From: Tomocerus qinae
Lineage: Eukaryota; Arthropoda; Collembola; Entomobryomorpha; Tomoceridae
NCBI GenBank assembly: GCA_020055645.1
Contig: CM034546.1
Span: 51,460,001 to 51,524,000, forward strand
Direction: 5' to 3'
DNA: 64,000 nt
A program made the translations under genes and the position numbers. A model generated the notes under the pieces. It ran no database searches and was not told the DNA's origin. It saw only the letters and a program-made list of their open reading frames with translations. Numbering within the stretch: position 1 is the first letter of the stretch; every line of letters starts with the position of its first letter. This document shows positions 3,255 to 29,131 of the stretch, one piece after another.

Positions 3255-5265
3255 CTATACTGACTAACCTACCGCAACCAAAAAAATGTCTGGAGACTAC
3301 TACGCACATTCTTGATTCTCATTGCCCAGTAATAATATGTTTAAAAATATATTATTTTTAGGTAGTAGATTATAAAAAGTTGCCATCAAGACAGTGCAAA
3401 ACTGCATACTTCAAATGGGTCTACTTTTAAAGTATACATACCTATACTGATTGACCTATTTCAACCAATAGAAACTTTGAGTACTACTACCCACATTCTT
3501 GATTCTCATTGCCTAATAATATGTACACAGATCAGATACATGTGAATGGTATATTTTTAAAATAAATTTTTATTACTACTTATTTAATTTCTTGAATAGT
3601 TTTTCCAGTATATTCAATCACAAACCAGTTTACCAGCAAGTATTTACCATCTAGCAAACATCACATTATATTCTTGATCTACATTTCAACTCCTAGAGAA
3701 GTTGCCTTCATGAAATGCCAATTGCACACAATAATAAATTTTCTCTTAAAAATAGTGCCTTAATTAACCCCTACAACTTTATATTCCTATACCTTGTATT
3801 CTGTCACACCTACTTCCATGATGCACTCGTTCTGTCTTTAAAATTCACATACAGATGCAACATTAATTTTATATAAACTAGTGGCCACCAGAATGCATGA
3901 CTTCTGTAAGGTATGTAATATTCATACAGGAAACACAATTTATTTTTTTAAATTGCAACCATTTATTTTTTTTCAAAATTGCAAACATTTAATTTAAAAA
4001 AATTGGTAACATGTATTTGTTTCAAAATTACAAACATTTATTTTTTTTTGCTTTTCACTAACACATATAGTTACATACTACGATATATAATATACAATAT
4101 ACAGGCAAGTAAATTTATTGCTCTATCTAAAACAGTGGTTATAATATATAGATTATTGGGCTGCAATTTATATGAGTAGGTAGTTTAAACAATAGTAACA
4201 TTTAATAGGAGAATAAATCAACTGAAACTACTTTTAGCTTTAACTAAGCAGTAGAGAACTAGTTGTGAGAAATTAATTCTGCTCTTGAGAAATAAACTAA
4301 AGCGTTATCTTTACACATTATCATCACTTTAACTGGCTTTTTTATCGGCTAAAATGTTTCACATCGATCGAAGGCAAAGGAAACCTGCTACAAGTTTATA
4401 CTATTTTTATTTAGAACTGGCAGTCTTCAGTTTCAGCGTATTACATCATTATCATCGGCACCGTATTTAGAAGTCGATTTCGGAGGGGGCAATGACGACA
4501 TACACTTATTTGTGTTAGGCATAATTGCGCGAAGCACGGAAAATTTTGGCTTATTTCGTCTAAAAAGAGTCAAAAATAGCCAAAACTCACGTGCGAAAGT
4601 TTTTGGTATTTTGAGAAAAAAAATTCCCTTTTCTTTGATTTCGGGGGCGACAACTGCCCCAATGCCCCCCTCAATGCAGCCTAGATTATCATTATTATTA
4701 TTATTATTATTTGTAATAAGTACTGCTGCGTACTTGTTTAAAGTTGTCTTATTATTCTTAAGGTCTGAAAAAGATAAAGAATGATACATTACATTGCAAC
4801 ACGAGTGTGATCCGCCTATCTCGGCTGGAGTTTCCCGAGATTCTACTTTAAAATACCACAGCTACCATACCGATTATACTCCGACTACTATCTAGAAATT
4901 TATTCAAATAGAATGGAATAGCAGGAACAATGTACAAGATTTATGACTGGTTATCCTCAATGAAAGTTAAATAAATAAAAATCGAATTTATTACTACTAC
5001 ACAGGTTTATTAGTCTAGGTTACGTATTAGATTTACCTACAATAGAATTCAAGAGAATAGCTTAGAATGAAATTTATGCACAAAATGTCATAGTGATTTA
5101 TCAACAGTTAGCCGACCGAAGAAGAGAAAATAATCTCTCTGCTACACTTATGAAATTATATTCCTGTTTTTAAACAAGCATTGTTCTATCAGCAATCAGA
5201 AGTTCAGATTTTTAAATCTAGTCATTTATTTATACCATTTATAGGGATGGAAATTTGGAAAATCT
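3255..5265. other. AT-rich intergenic with simple repeats
   Basis: No gene seen. It contains a degenerate tandem repeat with a unit near TTTCAAAATTGCAAACATTTA (3930-4050), an (ATT)n microsatellite (about 4691-4711), and a G/C-richer patch (4440-4680) resembling phrases around 46040-46160. ORFs in that patch have no family features. Confidence 0.4.
4691..4711. repeat. (ATT)n microsatellite
   Basis: About seven perfect trinucleotide units. Confidence 0.85.
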
Positions 5266-6138
5266 TTATTTTGCTCCAGTTGTACAAGTTTTTTCTTCAT
5301 ACATTGTTACAGCGTTCTCACTAGAAAACCCTAATGATGTTACATGTTCAATGATAGTTTTCTTTTCGGTATCAGTTAGACTTCTGCTAATTGCCGAAGC
5401 AAGCCATCCAACTTGTCCATTGGGAAAGCAATAAATCTCCACTATGTAGTTGCTATTATCCGTATAGGAGACGTACGAGTTAAAATTTTCATCTTTATAA
5501 AAATAGATTAAACATTAAGACTTTCGAAAGTATACTGTTAATGACTCTATAGTTATTATAAACAAATGGATACATTTTTGTTAGGAATTGCAATAAATAC
5601 TTACGGTATTTTGTGACACCTGGATTAACATCGTCACACACAAAAAGTAACGGGAAGTCCTTAGAGAATTGGCAATTCCAAGTTGAAGTGAGGTTTCCGA
5701 AACCAGAAAAGGATCCTATGCTTGCTTCACTATCAGTTGAAGTTGAAGTGTTCGCACCAATCGTAGCAGTTAAACAGATATCATCGAAATTGTCAGATAA
5801 TTGGAGCAACTCTCCCTTAAGAGCTTCTGCTTGGTGAAGTCGGGTAATGTCATTTCCCAAAATGGCATGCAATCCATCTGTTGCTTGTTTTGTAATTAAC
5901 TGCGTATACCAAGTCAATATTATGTTGACAGTTGTACAGTAACTATTAGAAGTAATAAAAATTTTGATGGCAATAAATAGTAAACATTAAATCATACCCA
6001 ATCGAAATCCGTAATTGGTAATGGCTCAGGTGCAAAACAGAGATTGGCGTAATGTTTCTGAGATATTTTGCATGTTGTTGTACAGTTTCCGAATGCCAAT
6101 AGAAAATTGAATATCACAAATTCTAACAAAAACAACAT
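5266..6138 (-). CDS. Secreted lipocalin-like protein, array copy B
   Basis: Exons 6138-5998, 5899-5605 and 5492-5266; 220 residues, intact, stop TAA. Signal peptide MLFLLEFVIFNFLLAFGNC. Seven family cysteines are present. Exon 2 is slightly longer than in copy A, with a Ser/Thr-rich insertion before FSGFGNLT. Closest in the window to copy I (50885-51755), with which it shares about 1.5 kb of upstream sequence. ATG chosen by the signal peptide and the conserved start in other copies. Confidence 0.8.
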
Positions 6139-7189: not shown

Positions 7190-7523
7190 TCTTCGTAGCC
7201 GTGCGGTTTAAAAAATCTCTTTGAAGGCTTGTTACGTATTTTTTGTTTAAAGTGCAGACATGATCTAAACCATCAAATGGAAGAAAAACGTTACAGTGTG
7301 TGTTATAAGACCTTATTGTTTGTGTAGATGCAAAAATACATCTTTACCATTTAGTCAATAAAGCAAACACTTCCATTATCCATCTAACTCATACCACCTT
7401 GAACAAAGCCTAATGTCAGTGATCATAGTTAATGCATCTGCAACTGCAATTATATGCGTCTACCTCATACCATTTTAATTAGTTTTTACTACTGATAAAG
7501 CTATTATTTACTTAAACCAAAAC
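7190..7523. repeat. Dispersed noncoding repeat, copy 1, interrupted by the BEL element
   Basis: Shares phrases such as AAAAATCTCT, CAGACATGAT and CTACCTCATACC with 46425-46800 and 52845-53240. The BEL/Pao element is inserted in it after ACCAAAAC; the repeat resumes at 22685 (AAAACATAATA). No coding potential. Confidence 0.65.
7519..7523. repeat. Target-site duplication, left
   Basis: AAAAC, matched at 22685-22689 after the right LTR. Confidence 0.8.
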
Positions 7524-8180
7524 TATTTCCGTATAGGTATACTTCTATTTTAGTATAATAATAATTTATACCACTTGCTGACTATTTCTGCACCTACCGC
7601 AATATACGTATATTTATATAGCAATTATCGATGCTGTTTTCCTTATAGCGATAAGTATAGTCATTATTGCCCTTACGGACAGCTATTGTACATAATAATA
7701 TTGCCATACTAGAATAGGTACCTAAATGATAATAATAATATGTATGTACTTTATTTACTATTTGTAGTTTATGTAAGTTAAAATTAGATTACGTCCGGGA
7801 CGTGTGGTCCGGCTTTCCTTTCTAGTTTATAGTCTTTAAAGTTATGGATATCCGGACAGGATGATCCGGTCAAGATGTCAATAATTAGTTATAATTAATA
7901 TTCTAAGCGAAACCAATGTACTATATAAACCCCCGCACTAAATGTTAATAAACACTCTCAATTCCACATTGAAGTCGTCTCACTGTTCTCTCCTCCAGTT
8001 TATTTCTCATACACGTTCAATTCTACATTGAAATCATTTTACTGTGTCACTCTGCAAACACTCTTTCTACATACTCACCTAAATAGTTTAAGGACAGGAG
8101 TTTATCTCAATCATAAGAATTGAGGAGAGCTCCAGGTTATTTTCAGCAGTTATTTTGCGAGCTCTCCATATATCAATCTA
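7524..8180 (+). repeat. 5' LTR of the BEL/Pao element
   Basis: 657 bp, starts TATTTCC and ends ATCTA rather than TG...CA; both ends are fixed by comparison with the second copy and by the target duplication. Contains a TATA box (about 7922-7929) followed by AATAAA (about 7947). Confidence 0.92.
7922..7929 (+). promoter_or_regulatory. LTR TATA box
   Basis: TATATAAA-type sequence in CTATATAAACCCCC; AATAAA about 25 bp downstream. R would begin around 7950 (inference). Confidence 0.6.
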
Positions 8181-8975
8181 CTTGGCTCCCCTCACCAGGA
8201 ATCGAACGGAATTTCACTCTGTGTTGAAATTCTGTGCTGCAAAAGGTACTATTTGTCCCGGAAAGGATACGACCTTTTCGTTTGTGACAGATTTTCTGTG
8301 TTTTCGACTAAGCCTCCGATACGTGTCTATTTTGCCGGCTCCTACAGACACCTGCTCACATGTGTATGGTTCACTCTGCTAAAGTGTTCCTTTCGTCTCA
8401 TCCCCTTTCACACATCAGTCAGTGCTACTGTGTGTAATTCAACTGATATTTGTGCTCCGTCTACACGGACAGGCTGATTCTCGTGTTATCCAGTTCGTGG
8501 TTTGTCGCCTCTTTCAAGCCCAAACCACACAATTCCGTAACGTTATTTTTTACGCCAGCAGCCCATTTTTCTCTACGGTTGGGCTTTCCACTACAATTAC
8601 TATCTACACTACATTGAGCTCAGCTCTATTTCCTTCTGTTCGATTTTGTGTCATTCAGTTCACTGTGTGTATTAATTACTCGATTCGTTCTCCACTTCAG
8701 CGACGGTCCCACCTCGTTTTCTATACCAACACTTATTATTGTTTCTTGCTGCTGTTTCTCTTCTCTCGCTGCACGGACTCTGCATTTCTGCAATTTAGTA
8801 CTTGAATCTTGAACTTTTGTTCCGATTCCGTACCACCGTTTAAGGTCAGAATTTTTTGCCACATTTCTACCCGCTACTTGCCCACTTTTTCGGTGGCCAG
8901 GACTTGTCTTTACGACAATAGCAAATTCACCATATTAATGCTAGGGACACATAGTTCAACTATGATGTCCAACAA
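8181..8975 (+). other. BEL leader with primer-binding site
   Basis: 795 bp between LTR and gag ATG. A two-base spacer CT is followed at 8183 by TGGCTCCCCTCACCAGGAAT..., which reads as the reverse complement of a tRNA 3' half (T-arm GTTCGATTCC, then an acceptor-like stretch and CCA, with one extra base near the end). Short upstream ORFs are present but nothing recognisable is encoded; packaging signals may lie here. Confidence 0.6.
8183..8207 (+). promoter_or_regulatory. Primer-binding site
   Basis: Starts with TGG two bases after the LTR and includes GGAATCGAAC, the complement of a tRNA T-arm. The tRNA identity was not assigned. Confidence 0.65.
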
Positions 8976-11200
8976 ATGAACCCTCAAGATGACCAGCAAC
9001 CCACAAGCAGTAGATCCACTAGACAGCAAGGCCCAGCCAAACTCCCTCCTACCTACCACCCCGCAAAAAGTCCATTTAGAACAGCAAAGCAAGGTCACCA
9101 ACAAGCGGCAGAAAGTGCCCCCGCAGTTGTTTCTGACCAAGAATTTGAGAAACAATTTAGAAAAACTAAAAGAGACATCCTCACACCTCAACAGGGAACC
9201 TCAGACCCCCTCGCTAAAATCCCAGGTAGACGTGGTACCCAGCCAAGGTCAAAAAGTGACCGTACCACCACCCCCGAAACATCAACTAGCCACCCTTCTG
9301 AGACTTCACCGCCAAGACCGGTGCCCGTATTGCCAGGCCACCCGACACCAAGTCTGCCTCAAGACGAGCGGAAGTCACTCCTCACACAAGTCAGGCATAC
9401 GCTATTTGGGACCCCCGAGCAGTCACAACCAAAGCAAGTAGTAGCCTACGATACAACACCTCCACGATCATCTCAAAAGAGACAAAGATCTAACACCCCC
9501 TCAGATATGGACGGTTCTAATCAAGGTGAGGACAATCAAAATAACGACCCCCCTCTCAACGCCTTAGGAGGCGGAGGAGGAGGCGGAGGAGGTAATGGAG
9601 GACGCAACAATGGCAATGGAGATAGAAATGGACGAGATCGAGACCAAAGATCCCCAAACGATCGTTCTAGACGAAACTCAAGAGACCGATCACCTGATAG
9701 ATTCCCTAATGAAGAACATCAGGAGGCTAATGAGGCTATTGATTCCTCTCTATCAAAAATAGAAGCAGCACTAGAACAACATAACCAAAAAACTGAGATC
9801 CTAACCGCTATTGACACAGAAATCTACTTAGAAGACCTAAAAACGCTAAAAATAGATTTGAACAAACAGCACAAGAGTTGCTTTAAGTACTTCTCCAATG
9901 AACCACATGACTACGCTGACTTAACAGATCAAGAGAGAGCGTTAGAAACGTACAATAACTTAGAAAACAGATACATGAAAGTACTAAAAGAATTAATGGC
10001 CATAGCAAAAGTTTTATCCCCCTCCATATCAGCTTCAGCTGGAGCAGTAAACAAACTCAAGATTCCAAAATTCAGTTTACCAAGGTTCTCGGGAAAACCA
10101 GAACATTGGACAACTTTCAAAGACAATTTTGAGTCTGTAGTCATAAAACAAGCCGCCTTTTCCCCAGCAGAAAAGTTACGGTTGCTAAATGACGCGCTTA
10201 AAGACGGCACTAGAAAGTATATCAACAGTGATTTAAAAGTCACTGATGATAATTGGCCAATTGCTTGGAAACGACTGATTTCCAGGTATGACACGCCAAG
10301 GGAAATGGCACACGCCGCTTTAAGACCGGTATTGCATTTACCAACTCTCTCCATACAAACAGAAGAAGGCATTAATCGCATAGTAGATATAGCTCGGGCA
10401 TCGGAAGCCCAACTCAAGGAAATAAATACAACGGTACCATTGTACCACGTATTTTATATTCATTTCATTCTTGCAAGGTTAGATAGCAAAACCGCAAAGG
10501 CATTTAACGATTCAATTAAAACAGATGAAATTCCAACATTCGAATCATGTTTAGAATTTCTAGCGAAAAAAGCAAAGGCTATAGGATTAAATACGCAAAT
10601 TCGAAGTACAGTTCAAGGTTCATCCTCAAGGCCAAAAGATGTTAGATTTAGTCATAAATCTCGAAGAGAATCCCGTATCATGGTAGCTACTCAGGATACG
10701 GATGGAAATACTACAGATGCATATACAGATTATAATTCAGACACCAATGTCTCTGACACAAGTTACACCAGTAATAGTGTCTTCAGCGTCTCCAGTGAAC
10801 AGAAAAAACGGAGACAACCGCGAAAGAAAAATAAAGAGAAAAAGAAAACTATCAATTTCGCCAGCTCAAGGCAACCCCAAAGAAAGGAACGGCACAGAAG
10901 TCCGTCTCCTGCAGCAAATAGGAACTTCCAGAAAAATGGAAAAAATCAGCCTAAAGAGGCTACCAGAGCCCCATGCCCACTATGCAAAAGTAGCAATCAC
11001 AGGGTCCAGGCCTGCTCTAAATGGGAAGCAATGTCTCCCAGCGCCAGGAACGAATGGGCAAAAATAAACGCTCGGTGCTTTAACTGCCTTGCGAGCCACC
11101 GAGTATCCAAATGTACTAGCAAATATACTTGCATGGTGTGCCGAAGACGTCATCATACGTCATTGCACATACCCAACGAGGGACCTGGGCCTTCAAGGCC
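8976..11200 (+). other. Gag region
   Basis: N-terminal Pro/Ser/Thr/Gln-rich part with PPTY at residues 24-27, then Gly8 and an Arg/Ser/Asp-rich stretch, a helical part, the DUF1759-like core (10050-10560), a Lys/Arg-rich linker, and zinc-binding CPLCKSSNHRVQAC (from 10974) followed by CFNCLASHRVSKC and CMVCRRRHHTSLH. This is usual BEL Gag apart from the PPxY motif and long disordered head. Confidence 0.85.
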
Positions 11201-14200
11201 GAATAGTCCTAGCCGTGGTAATAGACAAACCACACCAGTATTAAACCATTCCAGGATAATTTTAGACGATGATGAAGAAGAAATAGGACTGCTGCCCACT
11301 GCAATCGTAAACGTACAAAACAATGGAAAGTCTCGAAAAGTTCGTTGTCTTTTAGATTGCGGGGCACAAAATTCCTTCATCACGGAAAAAGCTGCAAAAC
11401 AATTGCAACTTGAAGGTTACGGAGAAATCAAACGATTTACCGTTGCAGGAGGAAAAACAATTCCCTCTCTAGGAAAAACCTCATTTTGGATTCAATCGAT
11501 TGTTCATCCTCATAATTCATACCGTATTATGGCCTATATTCTCCCAGATATTACGTCACCGCTTCCAAACCAATCCTTTGACAAAAGAGAATTAAAGCAT
11601 CTAGAAGGATTACCCTTAGCTGACCCTTCCTTTAATGAAACCAAACCGATAGAATTATTGCTCGGCTCAGCAATTTACGACAAGGTAATGGAAGCTAAAA
11701 AGATAACAGGCACTAGGGGAACTCCAAGCGCTTATCGCACAACTTTAGGCTATGTTGTGCTCGGTGAAACAAAAGATGAAACAGCTAAATTATGCTGTAC
11801 TGCTATAAAACGAAGAGACGTGGTTCCAATCCCACTGGCACCCTTCAATATGGAAATGTTCTGGGAACTAGAAGAACTTCCAAGTATGAGGCCTTTGACA
11901 GAAATGGAAAAATTCTGCGAAGAACACTACGTAAAGAATACCGTTCGGCTACCCAACGGTCGCTACCAAATCAGACTTCCAATGATTGATACCCCTGAGA
12001 AACTAGGCAATTCCCTCTCAGCCGCAATTCGAAGATGGATGGGAACAGAAACTAGATTAAAGAAATTCCCAGAGTTAAAACAAGAATACAATGATCAATT
12101 GGAAGATTACTTGAAATCTGGACAAATGGAAATAGTACGAGATGAGAATCCGCTAGGACGACCTCATCACTATTACATACCTCATCATGCAGTATTCAAG
12201 CCAGATTCAACCACGACTAAGGTCCGTATCGTTTTCGATGCCTCTGCTAAAACCGCATCTGGAGTATCATTGAATGATATACTAGCTCCAGGCCCAACAA
12301 TTCAGCCAGACTTATTCGATCAATTACTCTACTTTCGGTTAAAGCCCATTGCCGTTGTAGCTGACATTGCCAAAATGTATAGACAGATACTTATTCATCC
12401 GGAAGAGCAAGATTTTGCTAGAATTGTATGGCGCAAAAACCCAGGAGAGATCTTAGAACATTATAAGATGAAAACGATTCCTTTCGGAATCAATGCCTCA
12501 CCATTTTTAGCCTGTAGAACTCTAAGACAGTTAGCTACGGATGAAGGGAAACGATACCCCCTAGCTGCTCAGGCAATAAAGGTACATTTTTATGTGGATG
12601 ACTACATGGCCTCGTATGAGAACATAAAGATTGCAAAACAGGTCAAAGATGAATTAATCAAAATTATGTCATCTGCTCACTTTGAATTAAGGAAATGGAG
12701 TAGTAATTCCAAGCAATTACTACAATCTTTACCCTCACACTTACGAGAAACACCAGAAATTCCCATGCAGATAGACCATACAGCTACAGTCAAAACGCTA
12801 GGATTAAAATGGCTACCTTCCGCAGATAAATTCATGTTTACAGTCAATTTAGATCCATTCAAGGCACATACAAAGAGAACAATACTATCCGATATTTCAA
12901 AGGTATTTGATCCATTAGGACTCTTAGCTCCAGTAATAACGAAAGCCAAAATATTGATGCAAAAGATTTGGATGGAAAAAATAGAATGGGATCACGCCAT
13001 CCCTGATAACCTCCTTTCCATTTGGCTTCATTACGCTAAGAATTTAAAACAATTAGAAGATATCCGGATTCCTCGATGTCTGAACTATGACAAGGCATGT
13101 TCTTGGGAACTCCATGGATTTTGCGATGCCAGCGAGAGGGCTTATAGTGCCTCAATATATTTGCGCGGCATAAAGGGGAATAAGGTTACTATTAATCTGA
13201 TTGCGGCAAAAACTAGAGTAGCCCCGATTAAAACAGTAACAATTCCAAGACTGGAACTACAAGGAGCAGTTCTATTAGCCAATCTAACAGACCATATAAA
13301 GAAATTATGGGATATTGAATACACAGCAATTCACTTATGGTGCGACAGCACAATTGCTCTAAATTGGATTCACTCGGAACCAATACGTTGGAAAATCTAC
13401 ATAGCCAACAGAATTACTCAAATTCAAGAATTAACTTCTAAGGAACAGTGGCATCATATTGCCTCCGAAGATAATCCAAGTGACTGCGCCTCACGAGGAT
13501 TAGACCCTGAAGAATTACGACACCACCCTCTATGGTGGCATGGTCCAAAATGGCTAGCTCAACCACAATTTCCAATGCCGAAATTCAACCCAACTACCTG
13601 TAGCAACGAAGTTACAGAAATAGAAGAAAAGAAGCCTGCCATGTGCGCTATTAAAGCATTAGACCCAACTGATGTATTAGCCAGTTTAGCTAAATTTTCA
13701 TCCTGGAAAAAGGCCATCAGAGTAACTGCTTACATTCTTCGATTCATAAATCGAAAACTAAAAGGAAAATCAGTAGTTTTGACGCCATCCGAATTAGATA
13801 CTGCAGAGCGTAAATTAGCTGGTTTAATTCAAGCAAGTATATATCCAGATTTAGGAATTACAGTTCATAATAGTAAGCATCATCCCTTTCGAAACTTGGA
13901 CATTTTTAAAGACTCTGAAGGTATTTTTCGAGTTGGGGGAAGGTTAAAAAATTCGCCCCTTCCATTTGAAGCTAAACATCCCATCATATTGCCTGGAAAT
14001 CACCCACTCGTAAAAGCCATGATTTTACACACTCACGTAATTTTGGCTCATGCAGGAAAACAAACTATTAACGCTCACATCAGACAGCGTTATTGGATCC
14101 CTAATGGCACTAAAACCATAAAAAGCGTGATCAACAAATGCTTGATTTGTTTTCGCTATAAAGCAAGGCCTGAAACCCAGCTTATGGGACAGCTCCCACC

Positions 14201-17200
14201 AGCCAGATTTAGCGATATCCGTCCATACTTACACTGTGGGGTGGACTGTGCTGGCCCCTTTGAATTACGAAACTTCACTGGCCGTAGTGGTTCTTTTAAA
14301 GTATGGATATTACTCTTCGTATGCATGAGCACCAGAGCTATACATCTTGAAATACTTTCTTCAATGTCAGTCGACGGCTTTCTGCTAGCATTTCGGAGAT
14401 TTATATCACGTCGTGGACGCCCCTCCCACATGTACTCTGACAATGGCACAAACTTTGTCGGAGCCTATAACCGAATGGAAGATTTTCATGAGCAAATGAG
14501 GACAGCAATCATGTCCAGGAATAAAATTCTTCCAGATATCGAATTCGAAAGAATGACGTGGCAATTCAATCCACCGGCCGCGCCCCATAAAGGCGGGTCC
14601 TGGGAGGCTGCCGTAAAACTGATAAAAAATCACCTCAAAAAACTTATCGATACTGACATTCATAAGTACACATGGGAAGAATTCGAAACAATAACGACAT
14701 TTGTGGAAGGAGTGGTTAATTCACGACCACTCACAGCAATATCAGAGGATCCCCGAGATCTAGAAGCTCTTACGCCTGGCCATTTTCTAATTGGCCACTC
14801 ACTAACAATAAATCCAGAACATGATGTCAGCCACATCAAAGAAAATCGTTTGGACAAATACCAGCGCATTTTACGACGACATCAAGAAATTTGGAGACGA
14901 TGGGAAAAGGAATACATCCTTTCACTTCAAAAAAGGCCAAAATGGATGACAAAGCAACCTAACCTCAAACCCGGAGATTTAGTCTTGATACTAGACGATA
15001 ATCAACCGCCACTCCAGTGGAGAACCGGACGTATTAAAGAAGTTCATCCAGCCAAGGATGGCCTCATTCGAGTAACTACAGTCGAAACGCAGAGTACTTA
15101 CGACAAAAAGAAGGATAAAATTCAGAAAACTGTAAAAGAATTTCTCCGACCCATCTCCAAATTAGCTAAGTTACCAGGACCGGATGAGGAAGACTTCGAC
15201 GTTCCTATGCTACCAAACGGACTAGAAGAAAAACCCAACGATACAATGTCACAAATTACTCATGTAGCTTGGAACAACGGATTCTACGACATGCCAAAAT
15301 TACGACCTCATCAAGGATTAAAAACAACCGTCTGGCCATGGATTTATACCGCGGTAATAATGTTGATGACAAACATTCCCAGTAGTAATGCCTCACAAGC
15401 TAATATGAGTATCCCTACCAAGAATTGGTGGACTACTACGATGGTTTTCTATTGCGTCGTGATCTTTGCCATCTTAGGAGTCTTAGGAAATACGATGACT
15501 ATTATAGCCATCCGAAAAAGCCCACATCTTAGAAAAAATAAGTTTAATTGGCTGATAACCAGTTTATGCTGCTCTGACTTACTATTCAGCTGTATCATTC
15601 TCCCATTAACAGCTCTAAGATACTATTACGATGCTTGGATATTGGGAAAATTTCTTTGCCAAGCATACGCCTTTCTTCTTTACGGACTACTTATCAACTC
15701 TTTGGCAAATATTTTGATTATCTCCATTAATCGTTATATTTGTATTGTCCATCATTGGCGTTACCCAGATTTATTTTCCAAATATAGGGTTTGGTTCATG
15801 ATAATAACAACCTGGGCTATAAGCTTTTTAATGGTCACCCCACCCGCTCTAGGAATTTGGGGTAAATTAGGTCCGAAGCCTACTAACTCAGCATCTTGCT
15901 CAATCATCCATGATGAGCGAGGGCAATCACCCAAAAAAGTAATTTGGATCTGTGGAATTTGCTTTCCAACTGCTATTATTTTGTTCTGTTACGCGCGTAT
16001 TTATGCGTACAGCAGAAAAATTAGAAGGCAAGTAGGAACTCACTCAAGTAGAGCAATCACGGGATATGAAGAGAGATCGAAGGAAGAAAAACAATTATTC
16101 CGAATGATTTGTTATGTTTTTCTCGGATTTCTTGTCAACTTCCAACCAGTAATTATTCTAAATCTGTACGACCCAAAACGTGAGAAAGCTTCAAAATTAG
16201 TGCACATTTGCAGTGCCTTATTAGCCTGGTCCTCTTCATGGACAAACGTGTTAATCTACGCAGTTTCCAATCGACAATATCGCTCAGCCTTCAGAAAAAT
16301 GCTAATGCCTAGAAACCCTCGTATGAATAATCAATCGTCAACTACTGCTATAACATTGACTATAATAATGTTATTAATTGGAACTGGAATGGCAAATGTT
16401 CATCAACCACAGCCAGATTATTCGCAATTGGCCTCTCCTTGTGAAGTAGAATGGACTCCTCATCATGACATACCTGGCTGCACTGAAGAAATATCGTGGT
16501 TACATGTCAAAAATAATGGTACTCTGTGCTATCAGAATCTGTCTTGTGGAAAAGACAAAATGATAGCAATCGAAGGAAGCTCTTGCACTCCGATTCTAAA
16601 CTCCTCTCGCTGTACAAAAATGAAAAAGATGACTTTAGACGATCTGGAATGTCAAACTCACTACACTGAGCCAGATCCAGCTATATTCTATCAAGATAAC
16701 ATGCGCTCCCCATTATGTGCAGCAGGAGACTACATATTAAAGCATTGTCAACACTCTACCGAACAATACGAAAATGTACCAGTTGTGTTACACAACAAGC
16801 GAATATATCCAGTCTCCCAGTTAAACATACAGCAAGACGCTCGCACAGATTCTTTCGAATCATATACTTGCACTGGATCTTGTAGTAAACACAAATGTAC
16901 ATCACGACAATGCAGAGGTGACAGAGTATTTTGCGAAAATTTTGGATGTTCAAATGAGGTCCGAGAAACGTGTGAATGCAACTATAATTCATCAACAATT
17001 CTTCATCGAATAGTAACTGACTTAGGCAGCTATTATCCTCATTGTTGGGGCACAATGCGCCTCCTTACACGAAAGGAAGATTTAAGCTATTCACAGACAA
17101 TATATCCCTGCGCCACATGTACAATAGAATGTTCAAAAAACAGATTACTAATTTCCACACCAGGCATAGTAGCAAAATATATCAAAGCGCAAAGAAATCC

Positions 17201-19373
17201 GCAATTTGTATCAGTCATACCATCTACCTCAGAGACACAGCTACAATTATCAAAAAATATGTTGAGCTCCCCAGGGCCAATTAAGCTTGAACTTTATTTT
17301 CTTGATTATGATTTTCCAACGGAGCGTGTCATTTCATGCCCTCGTATCCCTATTTGTGATTTAATAACTTGCAATATATGCATGGAACGATGGAAAAATA
17401 TTTCATGTTATACTTATGTACAGTATACCTTACTAGCCCTAATGGTCATAATTGGAAGTTCAGTTATTTTCACCCTTATTTACGTATATCAGATTCTCTA
17501 TACTCTACTAAAATGTATTTCTTGGCCTTTACGAATTCTTATACAATTCATACGGGCGAGGAATAAGCGGCCCAAACCTATGACGCGAGAATCAGAAGAA
17601 GATTTTGGTACCCCTCTTTTAGAGGTAGCCCCCCATAATTCAAATTCTTCTACACCCTCTACAGTTGAAACTATACGAGAAACACGTGAGACTTATAATG
17701 ACAACAGACGACATAACGATGGACGTAGTTCTTCCCGGGTACGACGCCGCGATTACTTACCCACTCGAGTAATTTCACTAATTACTTTATGTCTTTGTCT
17801 ATGCTTCTGTAATGGATGTTCTGACTTTGCCTCTATATCAGCACAGTCAAAAGAATGTCATTACACGTCCGACTCAACAGCTACCTGTACAGTACGAATA
17901 AACACTCGACTGTCGCTGGCAGCATTAGATCAAAAAACTTGTTTTCGAATAACAGATGCCAAAAATAATGTTTTGGGCTCTATTGTCCTCGAAACCAAGT
18001 CTTTAGCACTAACTTGTATGAAAGAATTATTATATTACGTCCCCAAAGCAGTACCAAATTGCATTAGTGCTATCAAATGCTATAATCTTTTTAATTCAGC
18101 CACTTGTCACGGGACCCACTGTGAAAGATTTCAGATTAATGATACCCTAAAAGAATTTAAACCCACAGAAAACAATTTAGGCTGGAATTTCTGTCGAAAT
18201 TTCCATCATCGCTATTGCTTTTGGCCCGTGCCAGAAGATTGCGAATTTTATCGTGTAGCATTAACTAATCCTACTAATCAAGTGTACAAAGTATGGAAAT
18301 GCGATGAATGGCGAAACTCAGTCAAATTGAATATAACTCATCATCTCGGAAAAATAACTACAACTAATTTGACAACCATTCATGCAGGCATACCGGTAAA
18401 AATTGGCAAAATGGAATTTACTTTAATTTCCGTCACACAGCCTTATACCCCAGTACTAAACCAATGTTTAATTTCACGTAACAATCAATTCAGTTTGTCA
18501 GCATGTCTAAATCGCGGACAAACGGAAATTGGTAGCCTAGGTGAAATTTCTTGCCCTAATGAAAAAGATGCAAAACAATTAAATCACCATTGTTTAGCCA
18601 ATTTGAATATCATTCGTACAATTCCAACGCAAGACGGTGTTCGATGTGTAGCTGATCTTGTAGACCCAGAAAAGGTGCTAGAAGAAAACAGGCTACCATT
18701 AAAATTAGAAAATGGCATGCTAATAGCTGACCATGGAAATATAAGTTTCATTTCGTCATCCACCACAGCATTGGAGATTCAAATGACTACGGATGATCTT
18801 CAAATAACGAAAGAAATTCAAGACGTTTCTTGTTCTATAGAGGTTTTAAATATTCATGGTTGTTTTCAATGCCTGCAAGGTTCTTCTATAGTGGTTGTAA
18901 CTCGAGTCGATTCTGGGACAGAAACAGGGACCCTAGAATGCCCTGAAGTAGGATTTTTTACTCCCATACCCTTAACCGACCAGTTTGTAAAACATGAAAT
19001 CACCATGAAATTGAACCAACCCGATATAAACTTGAATTGTACTTTTAAATGTGCTAAAAACATAATCCCATTAACTATATCAGGCCATTTACATTATTTA
19101 GAGGATACTGACGTTAGAAATGAAATCACTGATACGTCATTCAACCTTCCAAACGGTACGAATACCACTGATTCCAATTCGTTCGGAATTAGCTGGGATA
19201 ATATAGGATTTAACTTGGCCAGTATAGGCAGTTCAATCCTTAATTTTCCTTCTTGGATAGGTTCAATATTTTCCTCTTGGCTATTAAAAATAATAATAAT
19301 AATAATCCTAGTTATAAGTATCATCGGGCTTGTATATTTGTGTACTCAAAGGCTTGTAAAAAAATTGACATAG
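8976..19373 (+). CDS. Gag-Pol-GPCR-Env polyprotein, 3465 aa, one frame
   Basis: Single ORF, ATG at 8976, stop TAG. Approximate residues: 1-358 low-complexity Gag N-terminus with a PPTY late-domain-type motif (24-27), poly-Gly and RS-like stretch; 359-530 DUF1759-like Gag core (FSLPRFSGKPEHW); 667-731 zinc knuckles; protease LLDCGAQNSF near 794; RT with YVDD (catalytic Asp 1208/1209); RNase H with Asp 1384; integrase with HHCC domain and D1757, D1822, E1877; DUF5641-like tail to about 2070; hydrophobic signal-like segment about 2115-2135; GPCR 2144-2450; envelope Gn-like about 2470-2880 and Gc-like about 2931-3465. No frameshift or stop separates the parts. Membrane proteins could be freed by signal peptidase as in bunyavirus glycoprotein precursors, or made from spliced RNA (inference). 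Confidence 0.93.
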   Translation: MNPQDDQQPTSSRSTRQQGPAKLPPTYHPAKSPFRTAKQGHQQAAESAPAVVSDQEFEKQFRKTKRDILTPQQGTSDPLAKIPGRRGTQPRSKSDRTTTPETSTSHPSETSPPRPVPVLPGHPTPSLPQDERKSLLTQVRHTLFGTPEQSQPKQVVAYDTTPPRSSQKRQRSNTPSDMDGSNQGEDNQNNDPPLNALGGGGGGGGGNGGRNNGNGDRNGRDRDQRSPNDRSRRNSRDRSPDRFPNEEHQEANEAIDSSLSKIEAALEQHNQKTEILTAIDTEIYLEDLKTLKIDLNKQHKSCFKYFSNEPHDYADLTDQERALETYNNLENRYMKVLKELMAIAKVLSPSISASAGAVNKLKIPKFSLPRFSGKPEHWTTFKDNFESVVIKQAAFSPAEKLRLLNDALKDGTRKYINSDLKVTDDNWPIAWKRLISRYDTPREMAHAALRPVLHLPTLSIQTEEGINRIVDIARASEAQLKEINTTVPLYHVFYIHFILARLDSKTAKAFNDSIKTDEIPTFESCLEFLAKKAKAIGLNTQIRSTVQGSSSRPKDVRFSHKSRRESRIMVATQDTDGNTTDAYTDYNSDTNVSDTSYTSNSVFSVSSEQKKRRQPRKKNKEKKKTINFASSRQPQRKERHRSPSPAANRNFQKNGKNQPKEATRAPCPLCKSSNHRVQACSKWEAMSPSARNEWAKINARCFNCLASHRVSKCTSKYTCMVCRRRHHTSLHIPNEGPGPSRPNSPSRGNRQTTPVLNHSRIILDDDEEEIGLLPTAIVNVQNNGKSRKVRCLLDCGAQNSFITEKAAKQLQLEGYGEIKRFTVAGGKTIPSLGKTSFWIQSIVHPHNSYRIMAYILPDITSPLPNQSFDKRELKHLEGLPLADPSFNETKPIELLLGSAIYDKVMEAKKITGTRGTPSAYRTTLGYVVLGETKDETAKLCCTAIKRRDVVPIPLAPFNMEMFWELEELPSMRPLTEMEKFCEEHYVKNTVRLPNGRYQIRLPMIDTPEKLGNSLSAAIRRWMGTETRLKKFPELKQEYNDQLEDYLKSGQMEIVRDENPLGRPHHYYIPHHAVFKPDSTTTKVRIVFDASAKTASGVSLNDILAPGPTIQPDLFDQLLYFRLKPIAVVADIAKMYRQILIHPEEQDFARIVWRKNPGEILEHYKMKTIPFGINASPFLACRTLRQLATDEGKRYPLAAQAIKVHFYVDDYMASYENIKIAKQVKDELIKIMSSAHFELRKWSSNSKQLLQSLPSHLRETPEIPMQIDHTATVKTLGLKWLPSADKFMFTVNLDPFKAHTKRTILSDISKVFDPLGLLAPVITKAKILMQKIWMEKIEWDHAIPDNLLSIWLHYAKNLKQLEDIRIPRCLNYDKACSWELHGFCDASERAYSASIYLRGIKGNKVTINLIAAKTRVAPIKTVTIPRLELQGAVLLANLTDHIKKLWDIEYTAIHLWCDSTIALNWIHSEPIRWKIYIANRITQIQELTSKEQWHHIASEDNPSDCASRGLDPEELRHHPLWWHGPKWLAQPQFPMPKFNPTTCSNEVTEIEEKKPAMCAIKALDPTDVLASLAKFSSWKKAIRVTAYILRFINRKLKGKSVVLTPSELDTAERKLAGLIQASIYPDLGITVHNSKHHPFRNLDIFKDSEGIFRVGGRLKNSPLPFEAKHPIILPGNHPLVKAMILHTHVILAHAGKQTINAHIRQRYWIPNGTKTIKSVINKCLICFRYKARPETQLMGQLPPARFSDIRPYLHCGVDCAGPFELRNFTGRSGSFKVWILLFVCMSTRAIHLEILSSMSVDGFLLAFRRFISRRGRPSHMYSDNGTNFVGAYNRMEDFHEQMRTAIMSRNKILPDIEFERMTWQFNPPAAPHKGGSWEAAVKLIKNHLKKLIDTDIHKYTWEEFETITTFVEGVVNSRPLTAISEDPRDLEALTPGHFLIGHSLTINPEHDVSHIKENRLDKYQRILRRHQEIWRRWEKEYILSLQKRPKWMTKQPNLKPGDLVLILDDNQPPLQWRTGRIKEVHPAKDGLIRVTTVETQSTYDKKKDKIQKTVKEFLRPISKLAKLPGPDEEDFDVPMLPNGLEEKPNDTMSQITHVAWNNGFYDMPKLRPHQGLKTTVWPWIYTAVIMLMTNIPSSNASQANMSIPTKNWWTTTMVFYCVVIFAILGVLGNTMTIIAIRKSPHLRKNKFNWLITSLCCSDLLFSCIILPLTALRYYYDAWILGKFLCQAYAFLLYGLLINSLANILIISINRYICIVHHWRYPDLFSKYRVWFMIITTWAISFLMVTPPALGIWGKLGPKPTNSASCSIIHDERGQSPKKVIWICGICFPTAIILFCYARIYAYSRKIRRQVGTHSSRAITGYEERSKEEKQLFRMICYVFLGFLVNFQPVIILNLYDPKREKASKLVHICSALLAWSSSWTNVLIYAVSNRQYRSAFRKMLMPRNPRMNNQSSTTAITLTIIMLLIGTGMANVHQPQPDYSQLASPCEVEWTPHHDIPGCTEEISWLHVKNNGTLCYQNLSCGKDKMIAIEGSSCTPILNSSRCTKMKKMTLDDLECQTHYTEPDPAIFYQDNMRSPLCAAGDYILKHCQHSTEQYENVPVVLHNKRIYPVSQLNIQQDARTDSFESYTCTGSCSKHKCTSRQCRGDRVFCENFGCSNEVRETCECNYNSSTILHRIVTDLGSYYPHCWGTMRLLTRKEDLSYSQTIYPCATCTIECSKNRLLISTPGIVAKYIKAQRNPQFVSVIPSTSETQLQLSKNMLSSPGPIKLELYFLDYDFPTERVISCPRIPICDLITCNICMERWKNISCYTYVQYTLLALMVIIGSSVIFTLIYVYQILYTLLKCISWPLRILIQFIRARNKRPKPMTRESEEDFGTPLLEVAPHNSNSSTPSTVETIRETRETYNDNRRHNDGRSSSRVRRRDYLPTRVISLITLCLCLCFCNGCSDFASISAQSKECHYTSDSTATCTVRINTRLSLAALDQKTCFRITDAKNNVLGSIVLETKSLALTCMKELLYYVPKAVPNCISAIKCYNLFNSATCHGTHCERFQINDTLKEFKPTENNLGWNFCRNFHHRYCFWPVPEDCEFYRVALTNPTNQVYKVWKCDEWRNSVKLNITHHLGKITTTNLTTIHAGIPVKIGKMEFTLISVTQPYTPVLNQCLISRNNQFSLSACLNRGQTEIGSLGEISCPNEKDAKQLNHHCLANLNIIRTIPTQDGVRCVADLVDPEKVLEENRLPLKLENGMLIADHGNISFISSSTTALEIQMTTDDLQITKEIQDVSCSIEVLNIHGCFQCLQGSSIVVVTRVDSGTETGTLECPEVGFFTPIPLTDQFVKHEITMKLNQPDINLNCTFKCAKNIIPLTISGHLHYLEDTDVRNEITDTSFNLPNGTNTTDSNSFGISWDNIGFNLASIGSSILNFPSWIGSIFSSWLLKIIIIIILVISIIGLVYLCTQRLVKKLT
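9222..9531 (+). promoter_or_regulatory. Candidate 5' splice donors in gag
   Basis: CAG|GTAGAC at about 9224 and AAG|GTGAGG at about 9526 are good donor matches. Paired with acceptors upstream of 19634/20797 or within the env region they could give spliced subgenomic RNAs. Speculative. Confidence 0.25.
11280..15180 (+). other. Pol region: protease, RT, RNase H, integrase
   Basis: Aspartic protease motif LLDCGAQNS (Asp codon about 11355); RT fingers with VRIVFDAS (about 12222), palm YVDDY (12591-12605); RNase H acidic residues in FCDAS (13125), RLELQG, WCDST and NPSDCASRG; integrase HHCC from about 14030 and catalytic Asp (14244), Asp (14439), Glu (14604); then a DUF5641-like domain with WRTGRI. 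All catalytic residues present, so enzymatic competence is plausible. Confidence 0.92.
15320..16330 (+). other. Captured class A (rhodopsin-type) GPCR inside the polyprotein
   Basis: Preceded by a hydrophobic signal-like stretch. TM1 has the GN pair (GVLGNTMTIIAI); TM2 has CSDLLFS with the conserved Asp; a Cys (FLCQAY) starts TM3, which ends ISINRYICIVH (NRY in place of DRY); TM4 has the conserved Trp (TTWAISFL); an extracellular-loop-2 Cys follows (SASCSII); TM5 has Pro and Tyr (FPTAIILFCYARIY); TM6 keeps its Pro but lacks CWxP; TM7 ends TNVLIYAVSNRQYRSAF, so NPxxY is NVLIY with Val for Pro. Intronless and in frame with pol and env. NRY plus SNRQYR suggest the insect Moody/Tre1-like group (inference). 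Nothing comparable is part of standard BEL elements. Confidence 0.9.
16340..17760 (+). other. Envelope Gn-like subunit
   Basis: Begins with a signal-like segment (TLTIIMLLIGTGMA), then a Cys-rich ectodomain with N-glycosylation sequons, a transmembrane segment at about 17420-17500 (LLALMVIIGSSVIFTLIYVY) and a cytoplasmic tail with basic and Ser-rich parts. Position and topology match the first glycoprotein of a bunyavirus-type precursor; the identity is by architecture only. Confidence 0.6.
17761..19373 (+). other. Envelope Gc-like (class II fusion glycoprotein-like) subunit
   Basis: Second internal signal (ISLITLCLCLCFCNG) followed by a Cys-rich ectodomain; the segment around 18180-18260 (GWNFCRNF..., then CFWPVPEDCEFYRV) resembles the cysteine and aromatic-rich fusion-loop area of phlebovirus G2-type proteins known in some nematode BEL elements (Cer7, Tas). 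It ends with a membrane anchor (about 19275-19345) and a short basic tail. Family assignment is inference. Confidence 0.6.
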
Positions 19374-19633
19374 CCCAAAGAAGGAAAAAAATAGGCTTAA
19401 TTATTATTTACTTTATCTTTTCCGTGCTACTAAAACTAATAAAAGTAGCACATACATCCGAGACAAACACCTATGTAACCTACTTAAAATATAAAAAATG
19501 GGACACACATCCCCGAAAATAAAATTAGCAAGGTTAATAATTTACTATAAAAGAAACGACAATTAAGATGTTTAAGTTATAAGCAAATAGTTAGTCTTAA
19601 CTGTAACAATTAAGAGTTCCTGAAATTCATAGC

Positions 19634-20641
19634 ATGGATACTTCCACCCAGTTTTTCAACGGGACCATGGAGGAACTCGATTATCTTCTCAACATACCTA
19701 TTCCACTTTACGAGCCAACTCCTCTACCAACTTCTACACTTACTGAAAATATTTCTCCCCAACCGATTTCCACTGCAACTTCTGTGGCACCAGTACATAA
19801 CTCCTCCCCAATTCTAAACCAGATTGATTTGGACAACTTTTTGACGACACTACCCGCACCTGTCGCTTCCACTTCCCGAGACCAACCATTATCCGATATT
19901 TTGGACATCGAGCTCGGATTTCCAAATCTGACAGACCTGGCAGACGCTGATTTAACGGCTCTACTAGATCAGCCACCAATAATAGATCTAACCCAACTTG
20001 GCGAAGAATTGGACATACCCGATTTAAATCTAAACTCATTTCAAGATTCATTATTCGATCAACCAGAAGACTACCACCAACGATACAACATACAAGTACA
20101 AGAAAATTTGACAATCCGTCGTAAAATTATTTCTCTTGAAACTACGGTATCCGGGCTGCAAAAAGTAAAAGATCTGCAATCTGACCGCATCCGATTTCTA
20201 AATCGATATGCTTCAGAAATGAGAAGGTCGAAGAACTCAATTCAAAAGCAATTAGATTTGATTACCAAACCGGACCCTACTTGTCCACATCCCTTAATTG
20301 ACCTACAAAGGACTCCACTCTCTACTCGTGAGCGATTACTATATGAAGATCTCCTCTACTTTTGCAAAAAATCGGAAGGACTACAAATGGAAATACGACA
20401 GATTACCGAAGCAAAAGAAAAGGTAGAATTAGATTGGAGCCGTGAAAATGAAGGTCACGTTAAAGCTCTAGATACGGTACTAAAATTACAAAAACAAATT
20501 AAAAGTATGCGATTACGCATATTGCCTACTCTTCGTAAGCAGACAAAACCACCTCCGAAGACCACAAGAAAAAAGTGTGTCAAACGGACTGGAATCCCGA
20601 CTAAACGGAAAACGCCACCAAAACAGGAAACCACCAAATAA
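19634..20641 (+). CDS. Accessory ORF 1: acidic / coiled-coil / basic protein, 335 aa
   Basis: ATG 19634, stop TAA, starts 260 bp after env. Residues 1-140 are acidic and Pro/Thr/Ser-rich with repeated hydrophobic-acidic patches (ELDYLLNI, LDNFLTTL, LSDILDI, LTALLDQ) like those of transcription activation domains; about 145-215 and 235-290 are predicted coiled coils; about 290-335 is Lys/Arg-rich, a possible nuclear or nucleic-acid-binding signal. No family is recognised. Its place after env parallels accessory regulators of complex retroviruses (analogy only). Expression would need splicing; CATAG just before the ATG is one acceptor candidate. Confidence 0.75.
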   Translation: MDTSTQFFNGTMEELDYLLNIPIPLYEPTPLPTSTLTENISPQPISTATSVAPVHNSSPILNQIDLDNFLTTLPAPVASTSRDQPLSDILDIELGFPNLTDLADADLTALLDQPPIIDLTQLGEELDIPDLNLNSFQDSLFDQPEDYHQRYNIQVQENLTIRRKIISLETTVSGLQKVKDLQSDRIRFLNRYASEMRRSKNSIQKQLDLITKPDPTCPHPLIDLQRTPLSTRERLLYEDLLYFCKKSEGLQMEIRQITEAKEKVELDWSRENEGHVKALDTVLKLQKQIKSMRLRILPTLRKQTKPPPKTTRKKCVKRTGIPTKRKTPPKQETTK

Positions 20642-20796
20642 ACTGTCAGTGGATTTTACAACTCCTTTTAACTACTACTAAAATTCTTCATTCTTCAGTC
20701 TCGAATCTTTGCTGTACCTAACTATATCTGTCTACTTCAATTTCCAAAAACACTTTTTCATCATCAACCAGTTCTTATATCATAAGTGTTTTAACA
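20642..20796 (+). promoter_or_regulatory. Inter-ORF spacer with splice-acceptor-like tracts
   Basis: TTCTTCATTCTTCAG (AG at 20697-20698) and a second tract ending CATCAACCAG (AG about 20770) fit the 3' splice-site consensus just before accessory ORF 2. Confidence 0.35.
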
Positions 20797-21891
20797 ATGG
20801 AAAATCGTGATTTCTACCGATATTCCATGTTTAGTGTGTCTGATTTTGAAGAAAGTGATAAGGAAGATAGTCCCGATATCGAGACCATCAACAACATCGA
20901 CATTCAAAATGACGATCAGATTATTGAACATACAACAAACACTGAAATTGAAGTTATTGACTTGGCTGATACCGAGAGTTCTTTCACCAACAGTGAACCG
21001 GTGCCTTCAACTAGTGTTAACGATATAAGCACTTCGAAATACGACGAAATCCTTAGAAAATATAAAGATCTCGTCAATTGGAACGAAATTTATCGTACCA
21101 ATTACCACTCCCTCCGAGGAGATTCCTTAAATCATCAAAGTGCGTACGAACTAACATCATTAAAAGTTTGTGAATTGTTGGGAGAAACAGTGAATAAATT
21201 ACTAAATACGCGTTCTGAGCTCGAACGTGAACAATTCGAACATTTTAAATCGTTAAAATCTTTGGCATTTTATCGTGAAAGCTATCACGAAGAATCCGAT
21301 AATCTACTGCAAAAATCTGATGAGTGTGCTGTGTTAAGTCAAGAGAAGAATCAACTTCAGAAAGAGAAGGATGGCTTGCAACTTCTCTACAAGGGTTTAC
21401 AGCAAAAGTATAACCATACCCGACGGAATCTACTCGAAGTCACCCGGATTAACAACGGACTGGTCTCCGAGAAAATTCAGCAGGGACGCGAGACAACCCT
21501 CGCCAAGGAAGAGTTACAACACGCAACAACTCGACACGGCGACGAGACCTTCACTCAGAATATGGCCTTAGAAATCTCGAAATGCAGAGTTTCGGCTCTC
21601 CAATTTCAAGCAAATCGGCTTCACAACCAATTATCATCTCAGCGGCAATCGCAACGGCGCATCGAAAGAAGATATCGCAATCTTTGTGCAGTGCTCCACC
21701 TTCGCCGCACCCAATGCCAGGACATCTCTCTTCGTCTCCACACGTCTCAGGAGATATTACGCAAGGCTCAACGAATCCGCCGTCGGGCCAACCGTATACG
21801 AGTATACCGAACGTATGTCCATCCAATTAATAAAAATTTTGGCACACAAACTCCAGCCTCTGCGTTATCTCTAGGAGGAAAAACTAAGTAA
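20797..21891 (+). CDS. Accessory ORF 2: acidic / coiled-coil / Arg-rich protein, 364 aa
   Basis: ATG 20797, stop TAA. Residues 1-75 are strongly acidic (FEESDKEDSPDIE); about 85-300 form long heptad-like helices; about 275-345 is Arg-rich (RRIERRYRNL, RIRRRANRIRVYR). The layout repeats that of the preceding ORF, including a PSTS-type Ser-rich linker, so the two may be ancient duplicates, although I see little direct identity. No family recognised; nuclear or RNA/DNA-binding role is inference. Confidence 0.75.
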   Translation: MENRDFYRYSMFSVSDFEESDKEDSPDIETINNIDIQNDDQIIEHTTNTEIEVIDLADTESSFTNSEPVPSTSVNDISTSKYDEILRKYKDLVNWNEIYRTNYHSLRGDSLNHQSAYELTSLKVCELLGETVNKLLNTRSELEREQFEHFKSLKSLAFYRESYHEESDNLLQKSDECAVLSQEKNQLQKEKDGLQLLYKGLQQKYNHTRRNLLEVTRINNGLVSEKIQQGRETTLAKEELQHATTRHGDETFTQNMALEISKCRVSALQFQANRLHNQLSSQRQSQRRIERRYRNLCAVLHLRRTQCQDISLRLHTSQEILRKAQRIRRRANRIRVYRTYVHPINKNFGTQTPASALSLGGKTK

Positions 21892-22027
21892 TTTGGTATG
21901 TTCTCTCTATTCTGTTATCTCATTTTATCATTGTATTTAACAAAACTCAAAAACTATTCTTTACTATCTGTTAACTTTTTCACTCTATTTTATTTTTATT
22001 TACTTAGTAAATCAATTCGCGGGAGAA
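21892..22027 (+). promoter_or_regulatory. 3' noncoding and polypurine tract
   Basis: Short AT-rich trailer ending in a purine run GCGGGAGAA directly before the 3' LTR, the expected plus-strand primer site; it is short for a PPT. Confidence 0.5.
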
Positions 22028-22684
22028 TATTTCCGTATAGGTATACTTCTATTTTAGTATAATAATAATTTATACCACTTGCTGACTATTTCTGCACCTA
22101 CCGCAATATACGTATATTTATATAGCAATTATCGATGCTGTTTTCCTTATAGCGATAAGTATAGTCATTATTGCCCTTACGGACAGCTATTGTACATAAT
22201 AATATTGCCATACTAGAATAGGTACCTAAATGATAATAATAATATGTATGTACTTTATTTACTATTTGTAGTTTATGTAAGTTAAAATTAGATTACGTCC
22301 GGGACGTGTGGTCCGGCTTTCCTTTCTAGTTTATAGTCTTTAAAGTTATGGATATCCGGACAGGATGATCCGGTCAAGATGTCAATAATTAGTTATAATT
22401 AATATTCTAAGCGAAACCAATGTACTATATAAACCCCCGCACTAAATGTTAATAAACACTCTCAATTCCACATTGAAGTCGTCTCACTGTTCTCTCCTCC
22501 AGTTTATTTCTCATACACGTTCAATTCTACATTGAAATCATTTTACTGTGTCACTCTGCAAACACTCTTTCTACATACTCACCTAAATAGTTTAAGGACA
22601 GGAGTTTATCTCAATCATAAGAATTGAGGAGAGCTCCAGGTTATTTTCAGCAGTTATTTTGCGAGCTCTCCATATATCAATCTA
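22028..22684 (+). repeat. 3' LTR of the BEL/Pao element
   Basis: 657 bp; reading it base by base against 7524-8180 I found no difference. Confidence 0.92.
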
Positions 22685-22689
22685 AAAAC
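22685..22689. repeat. Target-site duplication, right
   Basis: AAAAC, matching 7519-7523. The flank continues CATAATA... as in the empty paralogous site at 46641. Confidence 0.8.
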
Positions 22690-28095: not shown

Positions 28096-29131
28096 TTAGG
28101 TGTATAATAAGCCCATGAGACAGTAAGTTATATTATTCAAGGTAAAAGATTTAGTATTACGCTTAATATTTTATTAGTAGCAATCAATAGTTTATGTAAA
28201 TAGACTTCGTATACTGCCTGCTCATCTATTTCTGGCTTCTAGTACAGTAGTATCATAATATTATACTTGTCTACTGTTTCCTATAAATTTTATGTTTTGA
28301 TTTGTACTGTATATTGACACAATCTTAACCCTCCACATGGTACATAAAAAGTTAAAGTATTATAATTCTTCTATTTTCTGTAGTTGGACCACACATTGAC
28401 TTATCCTCTAAAACTGTATCTGCATATCAAATAAAATATCACTTTATTCTGTATTCTGTATTATTATAAAGAAAAAATTACAATCTTTTAAATCGGAAAG
28501 GGAGGAATTCCGCTCATGCATGAAAGCTTTAAATAATGTAATATTCAATACAGGATGGTCATTTACTGAAAATGAATTATACTTAGGTAGATTAATTTAT
28601 ACTCAAGATGAGACAATTTTGCACCATGGGAATTTGCTGTTTTTGTTAATCAATACATGGTCATCAATAATATTGAAATCACGTCAAATATATGGATGGT
28701 GTACAAGACCGTTAAAACTTGTCCCTTTTGTCATATCTCAACACACCACGATCACTCTCATACTCATTTCCTACCTGATTGTTGGCCAATAAGTTCATTA
28801 TTTCACACTCTTGAGACTCCAAATTAACAATATTTGAGGAGGGAAACGAAGGATTTTTACTATCAATAGTATCAATTTATTCAGTGGCAATCAAAGAATA
28901 TAAATTCACCACTTAGCTATGTACTATGGTTAAATGGAATTACCCAATATTCAAATAGATCATGCATGTTCTATTTATTAAGAATTTATCAATACTTTCC
29001 AATTTTCATTGTCTATAGCGATATAAGAAAATGTGTTTTGAGGTTGTCGCCGATGACAACATTCAACAACAGACACAATTGTATCCTGCCTTTAGTTATA
29101 AATTCAATTTGGAGCCTGATAGTAGAGCAAA
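28096..29131. other. Upstream region of the intact IR gene
   Basis: AT-rich, no gene seen. No clear TATA box could be assigned to the IR. Confidence 0.4.

Follow-up and report, generated by a model that had tools for sequence, protein, structure and literature searches.

How does a complete G-protein-coupled receptor (GPCR) come to lie inside a retroelement, and what does it do there? The question is raised by a 64,000-nucleotide stretch of the genome of the collembolan Tomocerus qinae (contig CM034546.1, positions 51,460,001 to 51,524,000 of the forward strand; here called the window), in which a complete long terminal repeat (LTR) element, assigned by its domains to BEL/Pao, occupies 7524-22684 on the plus strand. 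The receptor is part of this multi-copy element, is in frame with its other modules and has an intact class A core. That it is a real, retained module of the element is nearly certain. The whole explanation that we prefer, with a probability of roughly 0.6, is that a signaling receptor of the Tre1/Moody type was captured and became the first module of the envelope precursor.

One open frame of 3472 codons (8955-19373, plus strand) runs from gag through envelope, with the module order gag, protease, reverse transcriptase, Pao-type peptidase, integrase, class A GPCR, Gn, Gc. The initial annotation had proposed a complete GPCR between the integrase and the envelope of a BEL/Pao element, in one frame with pol upstream and env downstream; the order of Pfam domains, the full-length PF00001 match and the open frame bear this out. 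The start given there for the receptor, 15320, is in another frame, which has stops, and the receptor segment is 15384-16320. The receptor and its neighbors are arranged as follows.

8955-19373, plus strand: gag-pol-GPCR-Gn-Gc open frame, first ATG at 8976.
14019-15167, plus strand: integrase, from the zinc-binding H2C2 domain to the DUF5641 tail (PF17921, E 1.3e-10; PF18701, E 1.1e-27).
15291-15392, plus strand: in-frame ATG and signal-peptide-like stretch ahead of the GPCR, predicted from hydrophobicity.
15384-16320, plus strand: class A GPCR of the Tre1/Moody family with seven transmembrane (TM) spans and a short tail (PF00001, Tre1 matches, tree and motifs).
16323-16397, plus strand: second signal-like hydrophobic stretch, leading into Gn (peak at 16344).
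16398-17753, plus strand: Gn-like glycoprotein with a TM anchor (PF07243, E 3.7e-16; TM peak at 17430).
17754-19373, plus strand: Gc-like class II fusion glycoprotein with a signal-like stretch, an ectodomain and a C-terminal TM span (PF07245, E 4.8e-63; TM peak at 19290).

Searched with the receptor segment alone, the Pfam 7tm_1 profile gives strong class A similarity (PF00001, E 4.9e-39, profile positions 1-260 of 260), and it is matched over its full length in 4/4 further copies scanned, which represent both receptor-bearing lineages described below. The landmarks reported from the initial reading are all present: GN, the TM2 Asp, the TM3 Cys and NRY, the TM4 Trp, the TM5 Pro/Tyr, the TM6 Pro and the TM7 N...Y. 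Copies were compared in 17 rows (the window and 16 others) whose receptor frame is free of stops along 80% or more of its length. D2.50, both Cys, NRY, W4.50, P5.50, Y5.58 and P6.50 are kept in 17/17 copies, and the GN motif in all 16 that reach that position. The NPxxY motif of TM7 is absent, with NVxxY in 16/16 copies aligning there and P in 4/4 Tre1 sequences. NPxxY is a common but not universal mark of class A receptors. Judged by its fold profile and the other switches, which are kept, the receptor is a class A GPCR despite NVxxY. Its tail after NxQYR measures 8-12 residues in five viral receptors (those carried by the element) versus 36-49 in three Tre1 sequences.

Of 831 candidates from the protein collection, three are related to the segment at E up to 0.001: a protein from Brassicogethes (39%), the Sitophilus oryzae “protein trapped in endoderm-1,” or Tre1 (41%), and an unnamed protein (39%). 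In the sequence comparison with the PDB, GPR84 ranks first (E 6.6e-27). The AlphaFold model of the receptor has seven long helices and a mean predicted local distance difference test score (pLDDT) of 62; because the model is this weak, its fold matches count for class only. Foldseek matched it to class A receptors in the PDB and, among named matches at E up to 0.001 in the viral structures of BFVD, to pox-, herpes- and giant-virus proteins, either receptors or membrane proteins.

Other copies of the element in the genome (334 Mb, 115 contigs searched) carry the GPCR at the same place. The receptor search returned 73 matches, among which several are either fragments of a single locus or normal receptors of the host; 26 further receptor loci were fetched with their flanks, together with 14 other envelope loci. 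Beside the receptor in the 26 loci lie Gn (26/26), Gc (24/26) and the DUF5641 integrase tail (24/26). The distance from integrase core to Gn, 1548 bp in the window, was measurable in 19/26 and is 1469-1598 bp in 17 of these, the outliers being L033 (1753 bp) and L021 (1971 bp). A second, near-identical insertion, several of whose genes are broken, lies on contig C21 in other flanking DNA and has LTR stretches listed at 100%.

Lineages were assigned by Gc and integrase similarity. Lineage A consists of the window and 20/26 receptor loci, and lineage B, also GPCR-bearing, of L025-L027, L030, L033 and L034; the receptors of the two are about 46% alike. The hydrophobic stretch ahead of TM1 is present in copies of both, and among copies with open flanks a signal-like stretch was found upstream of the receptor in 15/17 and downstream in 14/17. 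No GPCR match at E up to 0.001 occurs in the other fetched envelope loci (0/14), and their integrase-to-Gn distance (470-695 bp; 9/14 measurable) falls short of that in the receptor loci by roughly one receptor length. They make up lineage C (L035-L040, L044, L047) and lineage D (L041-L043, L045, L046), with L048 placed in neither. The initial annotation would have been refuted by full-length copies of the same element lacking the GPCR, with assembly joins around the present one, or by a want of class A similarity; the other copies carry the receptor at the same place, and the profile match is strong. The 14 envelope-bearing loci without it do exist, but they are separate lineages, and no assembly join is involved. 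In lineage D the integrase continues into Gn, with a single hydrophobic stretch. In lineage C (for example, L036:2387-3150) a shorter piece stands at the place of the receptor; ahead of the Gn signal it has a signal-like stretch and a single further hydrophobic span, and it may be a receptor remnant or an older module. On the order of gain and loss of the GPCR, the integrase tree groups C with B (85/88), and the approximately unbiased (AU) test gives p 0.124 for the GPCR-bearing rows as one clade. In the Gc tree these rows fall together, weakly (62/42), and Gn favors neither arrangement (p 0.442).

The receptor is under strong purifying selection within the element. Pairwise ratios of nonsynonymous to synonymous substitution (dN/dS; NG86, with bootstrap intervals) are low across copies, as the initial annotation had proposed to check, at 0.017-0.175 in the computable lineage A receptor pairs: L012-L015 0.017 (0-0.08), L021-L015 0.040 (0-0.111), L017-L015 0.102 (0.039-0.22), L015-L018 0.151 (0.066-0.323) and L013-L018 0.175 (0.064-0.403). 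Between the window and L010 the proportions of synonymous and nonsynonymous differences (pS and pN) are 0.763 and 0.067. Most A-to-B pairs, and A-to-A pairs across sublineages, were given no ratio because silent sites are saturated, and the L025-L027 receptors have too few differences for one. Integrase, Gn and Gc have similar values (0.02-0.21 in computable within-lineage pairs), the exception being Gn in L025-L027, at 0.48 with a wide interval. A ratio of 0.987 (0.581-2.169) for the window and L009 was set aside as a frame artefact, since the pair differs by one substitution and indels.

The remainder of the element is laid out as follows. The two LTRs have 0 mismatches between them, and AAAAC flanks the element on both sides as a 5-bp target duplication.

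7519-7523, no strand: left target-site duplication AAAAC, pairing with 22685-22689.
7524-8180, plus strand: 5′ LTR, 657 bp, identical to the 3′ LTR.
8183-8210, plus strand: primer-binding-site-like stretch (TGGCTCCCC...), resembling by its sequence the complement of a tRNA 3′ end.
10086-10520, plus strand: gag-side DUF1759 domain (PF03564, E 8.9e-22).
11307-13349, plus strand: protease, reverse transcriptase (YVDD) and Pao-type Peptidase_A17 (PF13650, 6.2e-06; PF00078, 8.7e-08; PF05380, 2e-55).
19634-20641, plus strand: accessory open reading frame (ORF) of 335 aa, no Pfam family, about 40% identity in other lineage A copies and open there.
20797-21891, plus strand: second accessory ORF, 364 aa, sub-threshold Pfam match only (SAS4).
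22028-22684, plus strand: 3′ LTR, 657 bp.
22685-22689, no strand: right target-site duplication AAAAC.

By its Pao peptidase A17, gag-side DUF1759 and DUF5641 integrase tail the pol is of the BEL/Pao (Belpaoviridae) type, and BEL-type pols are among the relatives of the window integrase in the protein collection. The envelope, judged from the tandem of Gn (PF07243) and Gc (PF07245) with TM anchors, is of the phlebovirus type; PF19019 matched it below threshold only (0.00043, 20.4 bits against a cut-off of 25). The first accessory ORF is a further conserved gene of the element. A genome search with the second returned 17 rows, far below the count for the first.

Where the receptor came from was addressed with trees. 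The first held six viral receptors, four Tre1 sequences, two host receptors (L053 and L055) that we take to be Moody-like, and three other host receptors. The second was made with two rows dropped, and the outside Tre1 sequences used were three only. The viral receptors form one group (94/94 in the first tree, 84/85 in the second), and a Tre1/Moody set that includes them stands apart from other class A receptors (99/98 and 100/100). This placement against host receptors, together with the Sitophilus match, upholds the Tre1/Moody affinity suggested earlier. A third tree gave 93/94 for viral versus Tre1 receptors. The donor alternatives compared were the host Tre1 line, another Tre1 and a Moody-like gene; the AU p values (0.472 and 0.166 in the first tree; 0.15, 0.197 and 0.464 in the second) do not decide among them. 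The host Tre1-like gene lies elsewhere in the genome and has several exons (joins set by hand), whereas the viral copies are uninterrupted, which fits capture of a spliced mRNA. The V of NVxxY and the short tail, common to the viral copies, favor a single capture.

We propose that an ancestral envelope-bearing BEL/Pao (belpaovirus-like) element captured the spliced mRNA of an arthropod Tre1/Moody-type receptor, which would have been placed between the integrase and the phlebovirus-type Gn/Gc envelope. Translation would yield a GPCR-Gn-Gc precursor with the receptor as its leading module. The signal-like stretch upstream would send the receptor into the endoplasmic reticulum (ER), and the second would end the receptor and start Gn, so that signal peptidase could release a receptor of seven TM spans whose tail is about ten residues long. 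The signal-like stretches on both sides agree with a precursor that passes through the ER membrane and is cleaved in this way. On the surface of the infected cell, coupling to G proteins would let the receptor change polarity, adhesion or migration in the manner of Tre1; the benefit, at a guess, would be better passage from cell to cell or from soma to germline. The viral receptor probably acts as a signaling receptor. That it helps the element to reach the germline is a tentative proposal. Tre1 serves the transmigration of germ cells and blood cells; its NPIIY is needed for Rho1-dependent repolarization, and its NRY works with Wunen (PMC6122984). With NRY kept and the NPxxY proline lost, the viral receptor is proposed to signal with altered coupling rather than to imitate Tre1. 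It is more doubtful that the element turned a migration receptor of germ and blood cells into a soma-to-germline homing device, kept through two long-diverged lineages, and the same doubt attaches to how this might work, with carrier cells crossing epithelia, or with particles or infected cells being drawn to the gonad.

Several points weigh against a captured signaling receptor. With V at 7.50 in place of the NPxxY Pro, coupling to G proteins may be weak or altered; many copies of the element are broken; and the related lineages C and D do without the GPCR. Purifying selection would also be expected from a purely structural membrane role. Such a role is conceivable as a membrane spacer or chaperone for the folding and transport of Gn/Gc, without receptor function. 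The place of the receptor corresponds to that of NSm in phleboviruses, and both the one-span piece at this place in lineage C and the loss of the NPxxY Pro would suit a polytopic helper. We nevertheless regard it as unlikely, since PF00001 is full-length in both lineages and the switch residues of class A persist in receptors that are about 46% alike. The receptor might instead be packed with Gn/Gc and bind a ligand or lipid on target cells, as a tropism factor of virions or cell surfaces for which signaling is minor. It shares their frame directly ahead of Gn, and the cysteines of the ligand-side disulphide are kept in 17/17; however, NRY, Y5.58 and P6.50 on the cytoplasmic side are conserved no less strictly, which binding alone would not need, and we hold this to be rather unlikely.

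Retroelements pick up host genes, and the stops in some copies are what a receptor gene acquired by chance and carried without function could show. This passenger reading is very improbable and was rejected, as it is contradicted by the low dN/dS between copies, and the core is intact in two diverged lineages. An assembly join, or a host gene misplaced into the element, is barely credible: the same gene order recurs at the fetched loci (26 GPCR loci with Gn adjacent), the near-identical C21 insertion has different flanks, and the host Tre1 lies elsewhere, with introns. Nothing was found in its favor, and it too was rejected. The captured Tre1/Moody signaling receptor remains the explanation that we prefer.

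The window holds other features. A gene of at least three exons is present in about ten copies on the minus strand (2251-6133, 31350-34713, 40940-45251, 47805-51750 and 60627-63685); its product has a conserved FGNLT..W.C motif, and 2/2 exons tried have no Pfam family. At 37442-39486, between ORF stretches 36534-37456 and 39453-40574, apparently of one gene, lies an array of ~120-bp units whose long inverted arms (589 nt) are 100% complementary. A non-LTR retroelement lies at 54028-58446 (minus strand), with ORFs of 1153 and 318 aa (RVT_1, E 2.1e-31). A 638-aa ORF at 29126-31042 has no Pfam family; by eye it presumably resembles a divergent ionotropic receptor, as a candidate only.

The claim that no GPCR was previously known in an LTR retroelement stands, in that none turned up in a literature search made mostly without subscription papers. 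Among 668 long polyprotein candidates (1118-3558 aa, shared words) none holds this GPCR at E up to 0.001. Of 5896 integrase relatives, 120 were listed, and these show neither PF00001 nor PF07243 or PF07245; IMG/VR scans with the GPCR, Gc and integrase gave no relatives. Two integrase relatives, P0039 (2416 aa) and P0062 (2476 aa), are polyproteins of the BEL type that carry PF12259, presumably Baculo_F, another envelope kind in the superfamily. Selective retention of a receptor by a reverse-transcribing element would show that host signaling, and not only entry proteins, can be acquired by such elements. In flies the Tre1/Moody family governs the transmigration of cells, which allows the question of how elements gain access to the germline to be put to a concrete test.

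Tas of Ascaris and the Cer elements are BEL/Pao elements with a phlebovirus-like envelope, as here; we know of no GPCR in them. Tas and Cer13 are named in the paper on Atlas virus, which makes such envelopes in BEL/Pao elements already known (PMC9094657). Atlas virus (Belpaoviridae), from the nematode Ancylostoma ceylanicum, shares with the present element identical LTRs, a stop-free Gag-Pol-Env frame and a terminal phlebovirus-type Gn/Gc, but section 6 of that paper describes no GPCR, and its reverse transcriptase has YVDN where YVDD is found here (PMC9094657). In MDG1-group LTR elements the extra membrane protein sORF2 is reported to let capsids pass from soma to oocyte; this is a short fusogen-like protein of another LTR group, and the abstract mentions no GPCR (PMC11952523). 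Insect Tre1 and mammalian GPR84 are the nearest named relatives of the viral receptor and have NRY in common with it, whereas in the viral forms the NPxxY proline is missing, the tail is shorter and a signal-like stretch precedes the receptor. To our knowledge, GPCR capture was known only from large DNA viruses. The pox-, herpes- and giant-virus GPCRs in BFVD are likewise class A receptors in viruses, and their predicted structures match the window model, at 8-21% identity in the matches listed. Those are separate genes of large DNA viruses, whereas the window receptor belongs to the Tre1/Moody family and shares its frame with the pol and env of a reverse-transcribing element.
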